A DNA stretch of 64,000 nt from positions 1 through 64,000 of the forward strand of contig NZ_JAJSEE010000001.1 of NCBI RefSeq assembly GCF_023555375.1, in the 5' to 3' direction. The notes beneath the pieces are model-generated. The model did not search any database, was not told the origin of the DNA, and saw nothing but the letters and a program-made list of their open reading frames with translations. The DNA comes from Guyparkeria hydrothermalis. GTDB lineage: Bacteria; Pseudomonadota; Gammaproteobacteria; Halothiobacillales; Halothiobacillaceae. Positions 4,575-36,888 of the stretch are shown here, piece after piece; position 1 is the first letter of the stretch, and every line of letters begins with the position of its first letter. The position numbers were made by a program, and so were the translations under genes.

Positions 4575-7275
4575 CGTAGCGATAGGCCCGGTTGCGCCCG
4601 CCGGCCTTGGCCTGATACATGGCCTCGTCGGCCTGCTTGAGCAGGATCTCGTCGTCGAGAACGCCTTCCTGCGGGTAGAAGGTATAGCCGATGCTCGCCG
4701 TGACCTGCAGCGTCGCCCCCTCGATCCGACGCTCGCGGGCCGCCGTCTGGACCAGCCGGTTGATGATCGGCTCGGCATCCGCCTCCTGGTCGAGGCCGCT
4801 CAGGATGATGACGAACTCGTCGCCGCTGATGCGCGACAGGGTGTCGGTCTCGCGCAGCTGGGCACCGAGGTCCTTGGCCACGTCGATCAGGAGCTTGTCG
4901 CCCATGTCGTGGCCGTGCTCGTCGTTGACCGCCTTGAATCCGTCGAGATCGAGGAAGGCCAGCGCCAGGGTGCCGTGATTGCGGCGTGCCGCCGCCATGG
5001 CCTGCCGGAGGCGATCGGCCATCAGCACGCGGTTGGGCAGGCCGGTCAGGGCATCGTGGTTGGCCCGGTGCTCGAGCTCGCGCTGGTAGTTCTTGATGTC
5101 GGTGATGTCCGAGGCCAGCGCGATGTAGTTGCGCGGTCGGCCCTCGGCGTCGTGCACCAGGCTGATGGTCAGCCGCTCGGCGAACAGCTCGCCACTCTTG
5201 TGCCGGTTCCACAGCTCGCCGCTCCAGTAGCCGGCGGTGCGCAGGCGCTCGCGCATGTGGCGATAGAACTCGCGATCGTGGGTGCCGGACTGCAGGAACT
5301 TCGGCGTGTGGCCGATCACCTCGTCGCGGCGCCAGCCGGTCATCTCGGTGAACGCGGCGTTGACGTCGATGATGCGCGCGTCCAGATCGGTGATCAGGAT
5401 GGCCTCGCGGGCGTGCACGAACACCGAGGCGGCCAGTTGCAGGTCCTGCTCCATCTGCTTGCGGGCGGTGATGTCCTGGTGCGTGCCCCACATGCGCCGC
5501 GGCTCGTCCGCCTCGGTCCATTCCAGCACCCGGCCGCGCGTGAGCACCCAGACCCAGTCACCGTCCCGGTGCTGCATGCGGACCTCGGCCTCGAACTCGT
5601 CCCGCTCGCGCCGGAAACAGGCCTGCAGGGCCGCGTCGGCCCGCTCCAGGTCGTCCGGGTGGACCAGGCCCTTCCAGGTTTCGATGGTGGTGGGCTCGAG
5701 ATCCGGGAGTCGATACCCGAGCATCTCGGCCCAGCGCGCGTTGAATACCGTCTCGCCGGTCTGGATGTTCCATTCCCAGGTGCCGACGTTGGTGGCCTCG
5801 ATCACGTTGCCCAGGCGTTCGCGTTCGCGCTCGAGCGCCTGCTCGGCCCGTTCGCGCTCGGTGATGTCGTGGACGATCACGAACATCCGGCCGCGGTGGC
5901 GGTGATCGGTCAGCGGGGTGACGTGCACCTCGACGCGACGCTCCTCGCCCGAGCGCAGCCGGTGGGTATGCAGATGGCAGTGACCGCCGGTGATCCCGCC
6001 CCGGCAGACCTCCTCGAACTGCCGGCAGCGGTGCGCCCAGAGCCGGTCGATCGGATGACCGACCAGTTCCTCGCGCGGCCAGCCGTAGAATCCGGCCGCG
6101 GCCTGGTTGGCATCCAGGATCTCGCCGCTCTCGAAATCGATCAGCAAAAGTACCGAGGCGTTGTCCTCGAAAAAGCGCCGGAAACGCTCCTCGCTGCGAC
6201 GCAGGGCGATCTGGCGGAACACCAGCGCCACGGTCAGCAACCCGACCAGCACCATCGCCAGCGCCAGGATCAGCAGCTCGTTGCGGTGCTGTGCCCAGAT
6301 ATCGGCCCAGGTGATGTCGTTGGCGCGCTCGAACGGCGGCAGACCCAGCTCGCGCGTGACGCGCTCGACCGGCAGGTAGTCGGCCGGCGGGCCAAAGCCG
6401 GCAATGCCGGCCGTCTGGGCGGCCGGATCGTCGACGTTGAGGCTGAACAGCGCCGCGGCAATCTGGCGTTCCAGCGCCAGTCCGACGTGGGGCATCGTCA
6501 CCAGCGGCCACTCGGGGTAGAGCCGGGTCGAGACCAGGTACGGATAGTCGCCCAGGTGCTGACGGTTGATCACCTTGAGCACCCGCGGATCGATGTGGCC
6601 GCGATCGATCAGGTCCTGCAGCACGCCGGTACGGATGAAGCCCGCCTCGGCCTGGCCGTCGAGCACGGCACGCACCACCGCGTCGTGACTGCCGAGGAAA
6701 TCGAACATCGCCGATTCGCGCAAGTCGATTCCGGCCTCGAACGCCTCGAACAGCGGTGCCTGGTAGCCGCCGAGAAACCGCTCCCCGGGGGCGGCGATCA
6801 CGCGCCCGGCCAGGTCGGCCAGCTCGTCGATCTCGGCCGAATCGCGCCGCGCGATGATCACCCCGCCCAGGCTGCGGGTGCTGCGGCCCCGGTGCTGGGT
6901 GACCAGGGTGCCCAGGACGCCGGACAGCGCGTTCTCGCTGCGCACCAGCTCGTAGTGGGTGGGCGTGGTCAGCAGCAGGTCGATCTCGTTGCGCTGAATG
7001 GCCCGGTCCAGGTGGTCGAGATCGAGCACGCGCATCTCGAACTCGGCCGACTCGATCGAGGCATTGAGGTAGTCGACCAGCGGCCCGAAGCGCAGCTCCA
7101 TCAGGGGCACCGGGCGAACGGCGAAGATGCCCAGCACCAGTCGCTCGCCCGACGCGGCCAGCGTGACCATCGGCGTGCTCACCAGCACGCACAGGGTCAG
7201 CCCGCGCAGGAGTCTCGCCGCGAGGGAGGCGACCCCGCCGCGGTTGGCATGCCCGTTGGTCCGATCAGATTGCAC
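4555..7275 (-). CDS. Membrane diguanylate cyclase with periplasmic PhnD-like sensor and three PAS domains
   Basis: Probable c-di-GMP synthase. Order in the 906-residue protein: signal/anchor helix (about 15-40), periplasmic phosphonate-binding-like domain (about 42-315), TM helix (about 331-355, LLILALAMVLVGLLTVALVF), three PAS/PAC repeats (about 360-730) and GGDEF (about 735-900). The active loop reads SGDEF near residue 818, and an inhibitory-site RETD lies five residues before it, so the domain looks active and product-inhibited. There is no EAL domain. The GTG at 7275 was chosen because GGAGG lies seven bases upstream; it overlaps the preceding gene by 11 bases, so the two are translationally coupled. 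The sensor probably reads a small periplasmic ligand, which is unknown. Confidence 0.88.
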   Translation of the reverse strand: MQSDRTNGHANRGGVASLAARLLRGLTLCVLVSTPMVTLAASGERLVLGIFAVRPVPLMELRFGPLVDYLNASIESAEFEMRVLDLDHLDRAIQRNEIDLLLTTPTHYELVRSENALSGVLGTLVTQHRGRSTRSLGGVIIARRDSAEIDELADLAGRVIAAPGERFLGGYQAPLFEAFEAGIDLRESAMFDFLGSHDAVVRAVLDGQAEAGFIRTGVLQDLIDRGHIDPRVLKVINRQHLGDYPYLVSTRLYPEWPLVTMPHVGLALERQIAAALFSLNVDDPAAQTAGIAGFGPPADYLPVERVTRELGLPPFERANDITWADIWAQHRNELLILALAMVLVGLLTVALVFRQIALRRSEERFRRFFEDNASVLLLIDFESGEILDANQAAAGFYGWPREELVGHPIDRLWAHRCRQFEEVCRGGITGGHCHLHTHRLRSGEERRVEVHVTPLTDHRHRGRMFVIVHDITERERAEQALERERERLGNVIEATNVGTWEWNIQTGETVFNARWAEMLGYRLPDLEPTTIETWKGLVHPDDLERADAALQACFRRERDEFEAEVRMQHRDGDWVWVLTRGRVLEWTEADEPRRMWGTHQDITARKQMEQDLQLAASVFVHAREAILITDLDARIIDVNAAFTEMTGWRRDEVIGHTPKFLQSGTHDREFYRHMRERLRTAGYWSGELWNRHKSGELFAERLTISLVHDAEGRPRNYIALASDITDIKNYQRELEHRANHDALTGLPNRVLMADRLRQAMAAARRNHGTLALAFLDLDGFKAVNDEHGHDMGDKLLIDVAKDLGAQLRETDTLSRISGDEFVIILSGLDQEADAEPIINRLVQTAARERRIEGATLQVTASIGYTFYPQEGVLDDEILLKQADEAMYQAKAGGRNRAYRYASLPKG

Positions 7276-24640: not shown

Positions 24641-27600
24641 GTGTCCGCTGATGAGTCCGTCACCACGATGAGCATCCCGGACACCACCCGCCGCATCGAG
24701 GCCCTCGCCCGATCGCTCGGCGAACGCCTGGCGCGTGACGAGGCAATCGCCGCCCTGCTCGAGACCATCGCCGCCTGTTACCCCACCCTGTCTCGCAGCG
24801 CCGTCTTTCTCAGCGAGGACGGACGGCTGCTCGCGGCAAGCAACGATTTCGACCGCTCCCTGATCCCGGACGCCACCGCCGCCGGCAACTCGGGACCGGG
24901 GATCGAGGACATCGAGGACCGCCTGTTTCTCCAGGCGCTCGGCCCGGAGAGCGATACCCCCGGCTACTGGGCGATCGAGACCCAAGCCCCCCTGCCCGAG
25001 CCGGACACGCTCTCCGCCCTGACGCGGTGCGTCGATCACCTGTTCGCCAGCCACCGTCCGGACGCCGCCGAACAAAAGCAGCGCCAACGCCAGCGCATCG
25101 AGCGGCTCGAGCGCGACCAGGCACTGATGCAGTCGCTGCTTGCCCAGATCGACACCCTGATCCTGGCGGACGACGAGCAGCGCATGCTGGAGGTGGTCTG
25201 CACCCAACTGGTGGAAACCGGCCTGTTTCTCGGCGCCTGGGTCGCACCAGCCGATCACGGCACGGCACCGATCGCCACCGGCGGGGCCAGCGAGGTCATC
25301 GACCGGCCGGACCCGCAGGTGCAGCGCACCATCGATGACGGGATACGGCGCGCCCATGCCCTGGTGGACGCCGGACGCCGGTTGGTGATCGACGAGCGCA
25401 TCGCCGCGCCCTTTGCCGCGCTCAACTGGTTCGACACACCACCGCTTGCCGCGCTGGTCCCCCTGTCGCGAGGCGGACGGCTGTGGGCCTTCCTGGTGAT
25501 CGTCGCCGCGGCCGAATCGGACCTCGACCAGCAGGTAACCGAGGTCCTGGTGCACCTGGGCGAACTGGTCAACCGCAGCCTGGAACAGCTCGACCTGCGC
25601 GACCGGCTCGACGAGGAACAGCAACGCAACACCTATCTCGCCTACCACGACCCGCTCACCAACCTGGCCAACCGGCGTGCCGTCGACGCCGAGCTGCCCA
25701 AAGCGCTGGCACGGGCCGACCGCCACAACCAGATGCTGGCCGTCGCCCTGCTCGACCTCGACGACTTCAAGCCGATCAACGACCGCTTCGGGCACGCCGC
25801 CGGCGACGAGATGCTGATGACGCTCGCCGCGCGCCTCAAGGGGGCGATCCGCGACACCGACACGGCCGCCCGGCTGGGCGGCGACGAATTCCTGCTGATA
25901 CTCGAGGACATCGAGGACGATGCCGGCCTGACGCGGGTGCTCGACCGCGTCGCCACCACGATTCGTCGACCGATCTCGCTTGAGGACGGGCTCGAGGTGC
26001 ATGCCAACGGCTCGATCGGCGTGACCCGCTACCCCCTCGACGACAGCGCGCCCGAGCAGTTGATCCGCAACGCCGATGCCGCGCTGTACGCCGCCAAGAA
26101 CAGCAAGTCGATCCGCACGCAGGACTGGGTCATCTGGGAACGGGAAACCACGCAACGCCACTCGGACCTGCCCGAGATGTCGGAAACCATTCCCGCCTAT
26201 GGACCGGCGGCCCGGATGTTGCTCGAGCGCATCCAGCCGGAGGTGAGCCGTCTCAGCGAGGATTTCATCGATCGCTTCTACGCCGAGCTCTCCCGGCAGG
26301 AATCGATCCGTACCGTGCTCGGTCACCTGTCCGCCCGTGAATACGACGGGCTCAAGCACCAGCAGGCCGAGCACCTGGCCTTTCTGCTCGCCCCGGACCT
26401 CGGCGAGGAGCAACACGCCAATCGCGCGCGTCAGATCGGCCACGTGCATGCCCTGGCGGGCGTGTCGCCCAGCGATCTCGTCCGGGCGATCACGGTCTAC
26501 ATGCACGAGTTCAACGAGACCTTCAACCGCGCCCACCTCAACCAGCGCCACCAGAATCGGCTCGAGCGGGTGTTCACCGAGCGGTTGAGCATGGAGCTTT
26601 CCCACCAGCTCGCCGCCGGCCAGGCCGTCGACGACGAGTTCCACGCCGCCCTGGTGGAGATCGACCAGCGCCGCCGCAACGAACACAACTGGCCGGACTT
26701 CAACGAGCACCTGCTCGATACCCTGACGGGCCTGCCCGGCATCACGGGCGTGGCGATTCTCTCACCCAATGCCGACGGCCGTTTCGTTGCCAACTACGCC
26801 GAGGGGGACGACCTGTTCGCCCGATCGAACGACCGGGCCGACACCCATCCCACCCTGGATCTCAAGCGCCCCGAGTCGGCCCATCCAGTTTCGGCCGCCT
26901 ACCGCCAGGCGCGCGTGGTGCGCATGGACAACACCCTCGACGACCCAGCGGGCGCGCCCTGGGCCACGCGGGCCGACGCCGCGGGCATTCGCAGCACGGT
27001 CGCCGTGCCGATCCTCGACAACCGCGACCAGCCCATCGCCGTGATCTGCCTGCAGGGGCGCATCCCCGGCATGTTCGCCAGCGCCCGGCTGCAGGGGTTC
27101 GCCGGCCAGTTGATGGCCCTGGTCAGCCAGGCCTGGCGACAGATCCGCAGTCCGGCGGCCCTGCTCTATGCCAAGGGCGATTACGACCGCTGGCGTCAGG
27201 CCTTCTACGACGGCGGTTTGGAGATGATCTTCCAGCCGGTCATCGACGTGCAGACGGGTCGCCTGACCACGCTCGAGGCGCTGGCGCGCCTGTATCTGCC
27301 CAGTGGCGAGGTCATCCTGCCCAACATGTTCATCCCCTGGCTCAACGACGGCCAGGTGATGCGCCTGTTCGAGATCGGGCTGGACCAGTCACTCGCCTGC
27401 CTGCGCGACATCGAGGCCCGCCATGGCCCGTCGTTGTCGGTGGCGATCAACCTGCCGGTGGGGGTGTTGATGGACCCGGCCACGCCCGGGCACGTCCGGG
27501 CCGCGCTCGACCGCCACGGGGTCAGTCCCCAGCGAGTGACCCTCGAGTTGCTCGAGCAGGGCGACACCGGCTTCGAGCCGCGCGATCTCGCCCGCCCCAT

Positions 27601-28246
27601 GCAGCGCCTCGGGGAACTGGGCATCAACCTCGCGATGGACGACCTGGGTTCCGGGTACAACAACCTCTTGCGCCTGCGCAGCCTGCCCTTCAACACGGTC
27701 AAGGTCGACCAGGGAATGGTGCGCGCCGCCCAGCACGAGCCGGGCCGCGTGCTCACCTTCATCGCCTCGATGATCCAGATGGCCCAGGCCCTGGAACTGC
27801 GCACGGTGGTCGAGGGCCTGGAAACGCCCGACCTGATCGAGGCCACCGCCCTGCTCGGCGGTCAGCTCGGCCAGGGCTACGCCATCGCCCGCCCCATGCG
27901 ACGTACTGAGCTCGCCGGCTGGATGACGCGCTTCGACTTCGTCACCAACCCCGCTCGGCCGCGCACCGCACTGGGTGCCATGGCCGCGCTCTGGGGACTG
28001 CGCTCGCTGGGTCGAGCCCACCTGGAAAACTCCGACCGCCACCACCGCCTGCGCGCCGCGGCCGCCTGGTGGGCCACGGAGAACCTCGACCGGCACCGGC
28101 ATCTCGCCACCGGCATCCTGGCGTTGCTCCAGGAGTTTCACGATGGCGGGATACCGGGGGCGACCTTCGAGGCCCGGTTGCAGGGGTTCATGAACACCCT
28201 CGACCAGCTGATCCGCGACACGGCGGCCGAGGAATCCGCCGACTAG
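24641..28246 (+). CDS. c-di-GMP turnover protein: GAF-GGDEF-globin-GAF-EAL
   Basis: Cytoplasmic, no TM segment, 1201 residues. Domain order: N-terminal helical region, GAF-like (about 155-325), GGDEF (about 330-495; LGGDEF near 410 with inhibitory-site RDTD before it), globin-coupled-sensor globin (about 512-665; candidate heme ligand His603 in IGHVHALAGV), GAF (about 690-840), EAL (about 848-1105), and a helical C-terminal region. EAL landmarks are mostly intact (LEALARL, MDDLGSGYNN, VKVDQGMV, VVEGLET), so both synthesis and hydrolysis look possible. A heme globin would let O2 or NO switch the balance. The GTG at 24641 is listed; the ATG at 24668 is equally plausible. Neither has a strong Shine-Dalgarno. 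Monocistronic. Confidence 0.87.
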   Translation: MSADESVTTMSIPDTTRRIEALARSLGERLARDEAIAALLETIAACYPTLSRSAVFLSEDGRLLAASNDFDRSLIPDATAAGNSGPGIEDIEDRLFLQALGPESDTPGYWAIETQAPLPEPDTLSALTRCVDHLFASHRPDAAEQKQRQRQRIERLERDQALMQSLLAQIDTLILADDEQRMLEVVCTQLVETGLFLGAWVAPADHGTAPIATGGASEVIDRPDPQVQRTIDDGIRRAHALVDAGRRLVIDERIAAPFAALNWFDTPPLAALVPLSRGGRLWAFLVIVAAAESDLDQQVTEVLVHLGELVNRSLEQLDLRDRLDEEQQRNTYLAYHDPLTNLANRRAVDAELPKALARADRHNQMLAVALLDLDDFKPINDRFGHAAGDEMLMTLAARLKGAIRDTDTAARLGGDEFLLILEDIEDDAGLTRVLDRVATTIRRPISLEDGLEVHANGSIGVTRYPLDDSAPEQLIRNADAALYAAKNSKSIRTQDWVIWERETTQRHSDLPEMSETIPAYGPAARMLLERIQPEVSRLSEDFIDRFYAELSRQESIRTVLGHLSAREYDGLKHQQAEHLAFLLAPDLGEEQHANRARQIGHVHALAGVSPSDLVRAITVYMHEFNETFNRAHLNQRHQNRLERVFTERLSMELSHQLAAGQAVDDEFHAALVEIDQRRRNEHNWPDFNEHLLDTLTGLPGITGVAILSPNADGRFVANYAEGDDLFARSNDRADTHPTLDLKRPESAHPVSAAYRQARVVRMDNTLDDPAGAPWATRADAAGIRSTVAVPILDNRDQPIAVICLQGRIPGMFASARLQGFAGQLMALVSQAWRQIRSPAALLYAKGDYDRWRQAFYDGGLEMIFQPVIDVQTGRLTTLEALARLYLPSGEVILPNMFIPWLNDGQVMRLFEIGLDQSLACLRDIEARHGPSLSVAINLPVGVLMDPATPGHVRAALDRHGVSPQRVTLELLEQGDTGFEPRDLARPMQRLGELGINLAMDDLGSGYNNLLRLRSLPFNTVKVDQGMVRAAQHEPGRVLTFIASMIQMAQALELRTVVEGLETPDLIEATALLGGQLGQGYAIARPMRRTELAGWMTRFDFVTNPARPRTALGAMAALWGLRSLGRAHLENSDRHHRLRAAAAWWATENLDRHRHLATGILALLQEFHDGGIPGATFEARLQGFMNTLDQLIRDTAAEESAD

Positions 28247-35802: not shown

Positions 35803-36888
35803 ATGTTCGACTACACCCACGACCGCGGCCAGGCCAGTGAAATCATGCGGATGGTGCTTTCCCAGCTCGCCGAGCTGGGACTGCCGCCGACCCCGGTCTA
35901 CATCACGCTGTTCTACGAGCGCGCCCTCAAGCGCGACGCCAGTCTCACCAAGGACATGGACGACGCGATCAACAGCAGCAAGGGCCTGACCCAGGAAATT
36001 GCGCAGGACCTGTTCGACACCCACGTGCTCAACGGCGCGCTCAAGCAGATGACGCGTGCCCAGGACATCATGCTGCGCGTGATGCGCAACATGATGTTGC
36101 AGATGCTCAATACCGGCAATGAATTCTCGAACTTCGCCTCGACGCTGGGCGATTTCGTCCGCCAGATCGATCGCAGCGAATCGGTCGAGGCCCTGCGGGC
36201 ACTGACCGAGGAAGTGATGGAAGATACCCGTCACGTCGAGAAGAGCGCGCTGGAATCCTCCGACCAGATGAACAGCGCCGGCGACCAGATCGCCAAGCTC
36301 CGCAAGGAGCTGGAAAACGCCCGTCGTGATGCCCGCACCGACCCGTTGACCGGCCTGCCCAACCGTCGCGGCCTCAACGACCTCCTGCAGAAGCAGATCA
36401 CGGCCGCGCTCTCGGCCGGTGAGCCCGGCGCGTTTCTGCTCGCCGACATCGATCACTTCAAGCAGATCAACGACAACTACGGCCATCTGGTCGGCGACAA
36501 GATCCTGCGTTTCATCGCGCGCACGCTCAAGGAGCACGTCAAGGGCCAGGATCAGGTGCTGCGTTACGGCGGCGAGGAGTTCGCCATCGTCCTGCCCGAC
36601 ACGCCCACCGACGGGGCCATGGCCGTGGCCAACAAGCTGCGCAACATCATTTCCCAATCGAAGTTGCGCCTGGCCGAGAGCGGCCGCGAACTCGGCGAGC
36701 TGACCATCTCGATCGGCCTGACCAACGTGATCCCGCAGGATTACGCCGACAGCATCATCCAACGCGCCGACGACGCGTTGCTGGCCGCCAAGCGCAAAGG
36801 ACGCGACCGGGTCATCCACAACCCCGCCGACCCCGACGCCACCGGCCCGGACACGCTGATCGACGAGCAGAACAACACCACGATCTAG
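35803..36888 (+). CDS. Soluble GGDEF diguanylate cyclase
   Basis: Predicted c-di-GMP synthase, 361 residues, without TM segments. Residues 1-165 are helical (VLSQLAELGLPPTPVYITLF), then a coiled coil (QIAKLRKELENARRDA) connects to GGDEF (about 175-340). The active loop is GGEEF, an accepted active variant. The product-inhibition site is degenerate: KGQD instead of RxxD. It may therefore be insensitive to feedback. Transcribed after the PilZ gene. The N-terminal sensor family is not recognised. Confidence 0.92.
   Translation: MFDYTHDRGQASEIMRMVLSQLAELGLPPTPVYITLFYERALKRDASLTKDMDDAINSSKGLTQEIAQDLFDTHVLNGALKQMTRAQDIMLRVMRNMMLQMLNTGNEFSNFASTLGDFVRQIDRSESVEALRALTEEVMEDTRHVEKSALESSDQMNSAGDQIAKLRKELENARRDARTDPLTGLPNRRGLNDLLQKQITAALSAGEPGAFLLADIDHFKQINDNYGHLVGDKILRFIARTLKEHVKGQDQVLRYGGEEFAIVLPDTPTDGAMAVANKLRNIISQSKLRLAESGRELGELTISIGLTNVIPQDYADSIIQRADDALLAAKRKGRDRVIHNPADPDATGPDTLIDEQNNTTI

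Follow-up and report, generated by a model that had tools for sequence, protein, structure and literature searches.

An open reading frame of the analysed window, which is a stretch of 64,000 nucleotides from Guyparkeria hydrothermalis, encodes a protein carrying a sensor globin between a GGDEF and an EAL domain. With a probability of roughly 0.55, this protein is a bifunctional c-di-GMP enzyme that joins two sensor-output units in a single chain, gas exerting its effect mainly on the breakdown of c-di-GMP. The first unit (GAF1, connector helix and GGDEF) would synthesize c-di-GMP, and the second unit (sensor globin, long helix, GAF2 and EAL) would break it down. A heme held by His603 would bind a gas, most likely O2, which would be steadied by Tyr547. 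The ligand-induced change would then travel along the last helix of the globin into GAF2 and on to EAL, rather than to GGDEF, and GGDEF would receive a different signal through GAF1. The balance of both units would determine what happens to c-di-GMP overall. By analogy with DcpG and GCS-HD-GYP, the gas-bound form probably activates breakdown.

Domain organization

The globin-bearing open reading frame (24641..28246, plus strand) comprises 1201 aa when counted from its GTG, which is the numbering used here. As the similarity to relatives sets in around residue 9-14, the ATG at 24668 appears to be the likelier start, which would yield a protein of 1192 aa. Pfam searches and structure prediction resolve the order GAF-GGDEF-globin-GAF-EAL, followed by a C-terminal helical region:

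24704..25042, plus strand: N-terminal alpha/beta region, residues ~22-134 (without a match in Pfam; little conservation beyond the genus)
25133..25576, plus strand: first GAF domain (GAF1), residues ~165-312 (one of the two Pfam GAF_2 stretches of the protein; fold order in the model)
25529..25645, plus strand: long connector helix from GAF1 to GGDEF, residues ~297-335 (model helix; 288-326 in the 1192-residue numbering)
25640..26107, plus strand: GGDEF domain, residues 334-489 (Pfam, 1.2e-44)
26108..26194, plus strand: variable linker from GGDEF to the globin, residues 490-518 (identity within the genus, pLDDT)
26195..26620, plus strand: sensor globin (Protoglobin), residues ~519-660 (Pfam 526-646, model, Foldseek)
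26279..26281, plus strand: distal Tyr547 (aligns with HemAT Tyr70)
26447..26449, plus strand: candidate proximal heme ligand His603 (codon checked; aligns with HemAT His123 and DosC His98)
26543..26680, plus strand: 46-residue helix closing the globin and entering GAF2, residues 635-680 (predicted structure)
26696..27133, plus strand: second GAF domain (GAF2), residues 686-831 (Pfam GAF_2)
27188..27895, plus strand: EAL domain, residues 850-1085 (Pfam, 7e-45)
27932..28243, plus strand: C-terminal helical region, residues ~1098-1201 (predicted structure)

The profile search proposed by the first-pass annotation thus returned all four expected families (Protoglobin, GAF, GGDEF and EAL). The order given there, with the globin and a GAF domain between GGDEF and EAL, stands, but has to be extended by a further GAF domain ahead of GGDEF. 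Due to this GAF1 the globin is not the sole candidate sensor in the protein.

For the C-terminal region neither a Pfam match (12 C-termini searched) nor a significant PDB profile match was obtained. In Halothiobacillus and in other families this region exhibits a conserved His...Cys...His...His pattern resembling a metal site, of which the Cys is absent in Guyparkeria, including the protein described here. The Cys/His pattern and annotations from Acidithiobacillus had pointed to a CZB zinc domain, a reading that the Pfam and PDB searches did not support, as they gave no CZB match.

The globin segment and its predicted heme pocket

The Pfam Protoglobin model (PF11563) matches residues 526-646 with an E-value of 9.5e-7 and 29.4 bits against a cutoff of 25. 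In a search of the whole genome the match scored 33.6 bits and was the sole protoglobin found. Structure prediction, which had also been suggested as a check, gave a globin fold with an AlphaFold2 pLDDT of 89.8 and a Foldseek probability of 1.00 against HemAT, AfGcHK, BpeGReg and DosC (TM by target: 0.75 for HemAT, 0.78 for DosC); RsbR was also among the matches. Its helices span residues ~522-660, the last of them extending to ~680, so that the limits initially proposed for the globin (512-665) were approximately right.

A profile built from 26 related globin segments was compared with the solved sensor globins and recovered HemAT (2.6e-11), Tlr1989 (1.3e-10), a Geobacter globin (5.8e-9) and AfGcHK (6.3e-9), as well as, more weakly, BpeGReg and DosC. 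In these profile alignments the distal Tyr70 of HemAT falls on Tyr547 and its proximal His123 on His603, which is also the position of DosC His98. The proximal histidine put forward in the first-pass annotation is thereby supported, and its codon lies at 26447-26449. The alignment of the ligand residues, the pLDDT of 89.8 and the Foldseek matches to sensor globins make it likely that the globin segment binds heme.

Coupling of the globin to its neighbors

Within Guyparkeria the mean identity amounts to 0.87 for GGDEF, 0.73 for the globin, 0.74 for the connector between globin and GAF2 and 0.86 for EAL, whereas the linker 490-518 reaches only 0.43 and is the least conserved stretch between recognized domains. 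In the full-length model residues 502-514 exhibit a pLDDT below 50, and the longest stretch under this value falls in the same linker; a second short low-confidence stretch (residues 837-842) lies between GAF2 and EAL. On the other side of the globin a single 46-residue helix, 635-680, runs into GAF2, and GAF1 is also joined to GGDEF by a helix; the model, a monomer with a pTM of 0.41, does not predict the relative placement of the domains. The weak linker, the helix between globin and GAF2 and the existence of free-standing globin-GAF-EAL proteins (see below) are the reasons for which we prefer a reading with two units and a globin acting on EAL.

It had been suggested that a gas signal in the middle of the protein could act on both neighbors. 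Such a central globin would let its ligand turn the protein from c-di-GMP synthesis to degradation or back, with gas setting the direction; in DcpG different ligands act in this way. We regard this as unlikely, although it fares best among the alternatives. Both catalytic domains are intact and are kept so in relatives, the junction between GGDEF and globin is constant across the family, and in DcpG one globin indeed drives opposite activities (PMC10882959). Yet, the linker leading to GGDEF is low in both conservation and model confidence, one long helix ties the globin to the GAF-EAL part, GGDEF possesses a GAF domain and a helical connector of its own, and globin-GAF-EAL proteins exist without GGDEF in several genomes. 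Control over both neighbors is therefore not indicated and was over-stated; that gas sets the direction of c-di-GMP turnover is possible.

Free-standing and rearranged relatives

In a tree of EAL domains (48 rows) all enzymes with a middle globin are split, by a branch with a support of 100/99, from 21 globin-GGDEF-EAL proteins whose globin is N-terminal. The middle-globin side also holds the free-standing globin-GAF-EAL proteins and two unusual proteins of the N-terminal type. As the free-standing proteins interleave with the middle-globin enzymes, the GGDEF half has been gained or lost several times. The middle-globin enzymes cluster again in the GGDEF tree, there together with the proteins L108 and L160 (92/96).

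The second unit occurs as a separate gene in Halothiobacillus (L187; G017:C6, ~85200-86969), where it encodes globin, GAF, EAL and the C-terminus. Over 584 aligned positions this protein is 33% identical to the one described here, and it keeps both heme residues; its smaller size makes it a candidate for biochemical work on the second half. Further free-standing globin-GAF-EAL proteins are WP_244817502.1, encoded on a Caballeronia plasmid, and three proteins encoded by two additional genomes. The 1068 aa protein L108 (G304:C9) contains the same parts in another order, globin-GAF-GAF-GGDEF-EAL. Since its globin-GAF pair stands upstream of GAF-GGDEF-EAL, this pair may be a movable cassette that is not tied to EAL, and an origin of the middle-globin layout by fusion of two units or by insertion of a globin-GAF cassette are both possible.

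Two Halothiobacillus loci were rejected as evidence. The apparent split gene L189 results from an assembly gap, and L188 (G017:C7), seemingly a copy without EAL, is decayed: its reading frame ends after GAF2 and remnants of EAL follow downstream in other frames.

Catalytic domains and conservation of the heme ligand

The GGDEF motif is intact at residues 413-417, with the product-inhibition motif R404xxD407 five residues ahead. In the EAL domain the catalytic residues E879, N937, E969, E972, D1000, D1001, K1021, E1058 and Q1078 are all present, and an alignment with DosP confirms that the catalytic positions are conserved. Among 33 aligned proteins this catalytic set (E, N, E, E, D, D, K, E, Q) is invariant, apart from one residue that is unread in a truncated row. 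Among the complete copies a single one, carrying SGDEF, departs from an intact GGDEF motif, and the I-site is near-invariant. The first impression that both catalytic domains are intact thus holds for the protein itself as well as for its relatives. Because the catalytic residues are kept across the 33 proteins, both activities look to be under selection.

GGDEF-EAL proteins in which one domain is inactive and has become regulatory are common. One catalytic domain could accordingly be inactive in the cell and bind GTP or c-di-GMP to regulate the other, with the globin tuning a single output. The EAL domain, which ranks only 18th by score among the 22 Pfam EAL matches of the genome, would fit this idea; nevertheless, we consider it improbable, given that neither domain lacks any catalytic residue and that these residues hardly vary within the family.

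The equivalents of His603 and Tyr547 are kept in this protein and in most relatives. The proximal histidine has, on the other hand, been lost at four or more distinct positions of the EAL tree (L009/L011, L098, the L106 pair and L075); the free-standing Caballeronia protein is among those lacking it. In L009 and L011, which belong to the Guyparkeria clade and probably stem from the same genomes as the loci L066 and L067, His stands in place of Tyr547, Tyr in place of His601 and Gly or Ser in place of His603, and both enzymes are intact. Judged from these residues, the heme site has been lost or rearranged in an otherwise conserved protein. As relatives without the proximal histidine retain the EAL catalytic residues, the globin of some members must either function in the absence of its usual heme ligand or have a role other than gas sensing, and regulation by GAF2 alone is possible. 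That the globin described here is a structural or protein-protein module without gas sensing, comparable to the non-heme globins of the RsbR type, with the GAF domains as regulators, would agree with these losses and with RsbR being among the Foldseek matches, but it is the least probable explanation as His603 and Tyr547 are kept and gas sensors that bind heme rank as its best matches.

Distribution and genomic context

The middle-globin layout was found in 10 of 11 Guyparkeria genomes, the exception being a genome that is 64% complete, and, with long paralogs counted, in all 10 genomes of Halothiobacillus, the sister of the group containing Guyparkeria. At seven Guyparkeria-type loci the gene occupies the same site between a glycosyltransferase gene and a gene for an LPG-synthase-like protein. 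One side of this site carries hemA, and on contigs that extend far enough holC and valS lie on the opposite side.

Complete GGDEF-globin-EAL proteins are also encoded in at least three other gammaproteobacterial families (f149, f152 and f157) and a partial one in a further family (f128). Nearly all such proteins outside Guyparkeria and Halothiobacillus show a detectable second GAF domain. A class-wide sample of 274 gammaproteobacterial genomes, searched with the Pfam Protoglobin model, yielded 22 proteins combining globin, GGDEF and EAL with the globin first and five with a middle globin outside Guyparkeria; because this Pfam model performs weakly on the subfamily, the count of the middle type is probably too low. 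The GGDEF-globin-EAL layout is real and a minority type, and it is not unique.

The genome of 2.43 Mb contains 44 GGDEF and 22 EAL matches, which is very dense for its size. Two further GGDEF genes lie within the window (4588-5064, minus strand, and 36331-36810, plus strand). The genome belongs to a group of sulfur oxidizers, and the protein would probably feed an oxygen signal into its c-di-GMP network, which is unusually large.

Comparison with known globin-coupled proteins

The layout was from the beginning described as unlike that of characterized globin-coupled c-di-GMP enzymes, and the comparison agrees with this, as the globin of those enzymes is located at the front. A globin-coupled sensor in the strict sense has an N-terminal globin followed by its transmitter; here the globin occupies residues ~519-660 of 1201 and GGDEF lies ahead of it. 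The second half of the protein taken alone does exhibit the strict order, and it is probably through this half that the protein works like a globin-coupled sensor. A published GGDEF-globin-EAL order was not found in the open-access literature, which misses most subscription journals. To our knowledge, no globin sensor has been demonstrated to transmit its signal to a domain preceding it in the chain.

The protein resembles DcpG from Paenibacillus dendritiformis in that a single polypeptide unites one sensor globin with GGDEF and EAL, and from its motifs both activities appear plausible here as well. The globin of DcpG stands at the front, whereas here it follows GGDEF, is paired with a GAF domain of its own and is accompanied by a further GAF domain at the front of the protein. 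Breakdown of c-di-GMP activated by O2 is described for DcpG and for GCS-HD-GYP from Vibrio fluvialis (PMC10882959). In the latter a globin controls c-di-GMP breakdown, as proposed here for the second unit (PMC10882959); it differs by an HD-GYP instead of an EAL domain, the lack of GGDEF and an N-terminal globin. With the globin-coupled diguanylate cyclases DosC (YddV) and BpeGReg the protein shares the sensor globin fold and the proximal histidine; these enzymes consist of an N-terminal globin, an unclassified middle domain and GGDEF only (PMC5549716). Protoglobin sensors of c-di-GMP proteins are, according to a review, often N-terminal (PMC8846402).

For Acidithiobacillia 80 GGDEF-EAL proteins with a protoglobin partner, some of them with CZB, have been reported, and a 'GCS-EAL' is listed for Acidithiobacillus caldus (PMC6416229). 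The architectures Protoglobin-GGDEF-EAL-CZB and GCS-GAF-GGDEF-EAL from this class have, as written, the globin in front (PMC6416229), and a CZB was not confirmed in the protein described here. The closest counterparts of the second half are L187 and Caballeronia WP_244817502.1, which share its globin-GAF-EAL order and its EAL lineage but are without the GGDEF half, the former keeping and the latter having lost the heme histidine. In characterized globin-coupled enzymes gas is read at the front. The conserved family with a middle globin, its natural free-standing copies of the second half and its members without the heme ligand together form a test set for how a globin signals and for one-way versus two-way signaling.
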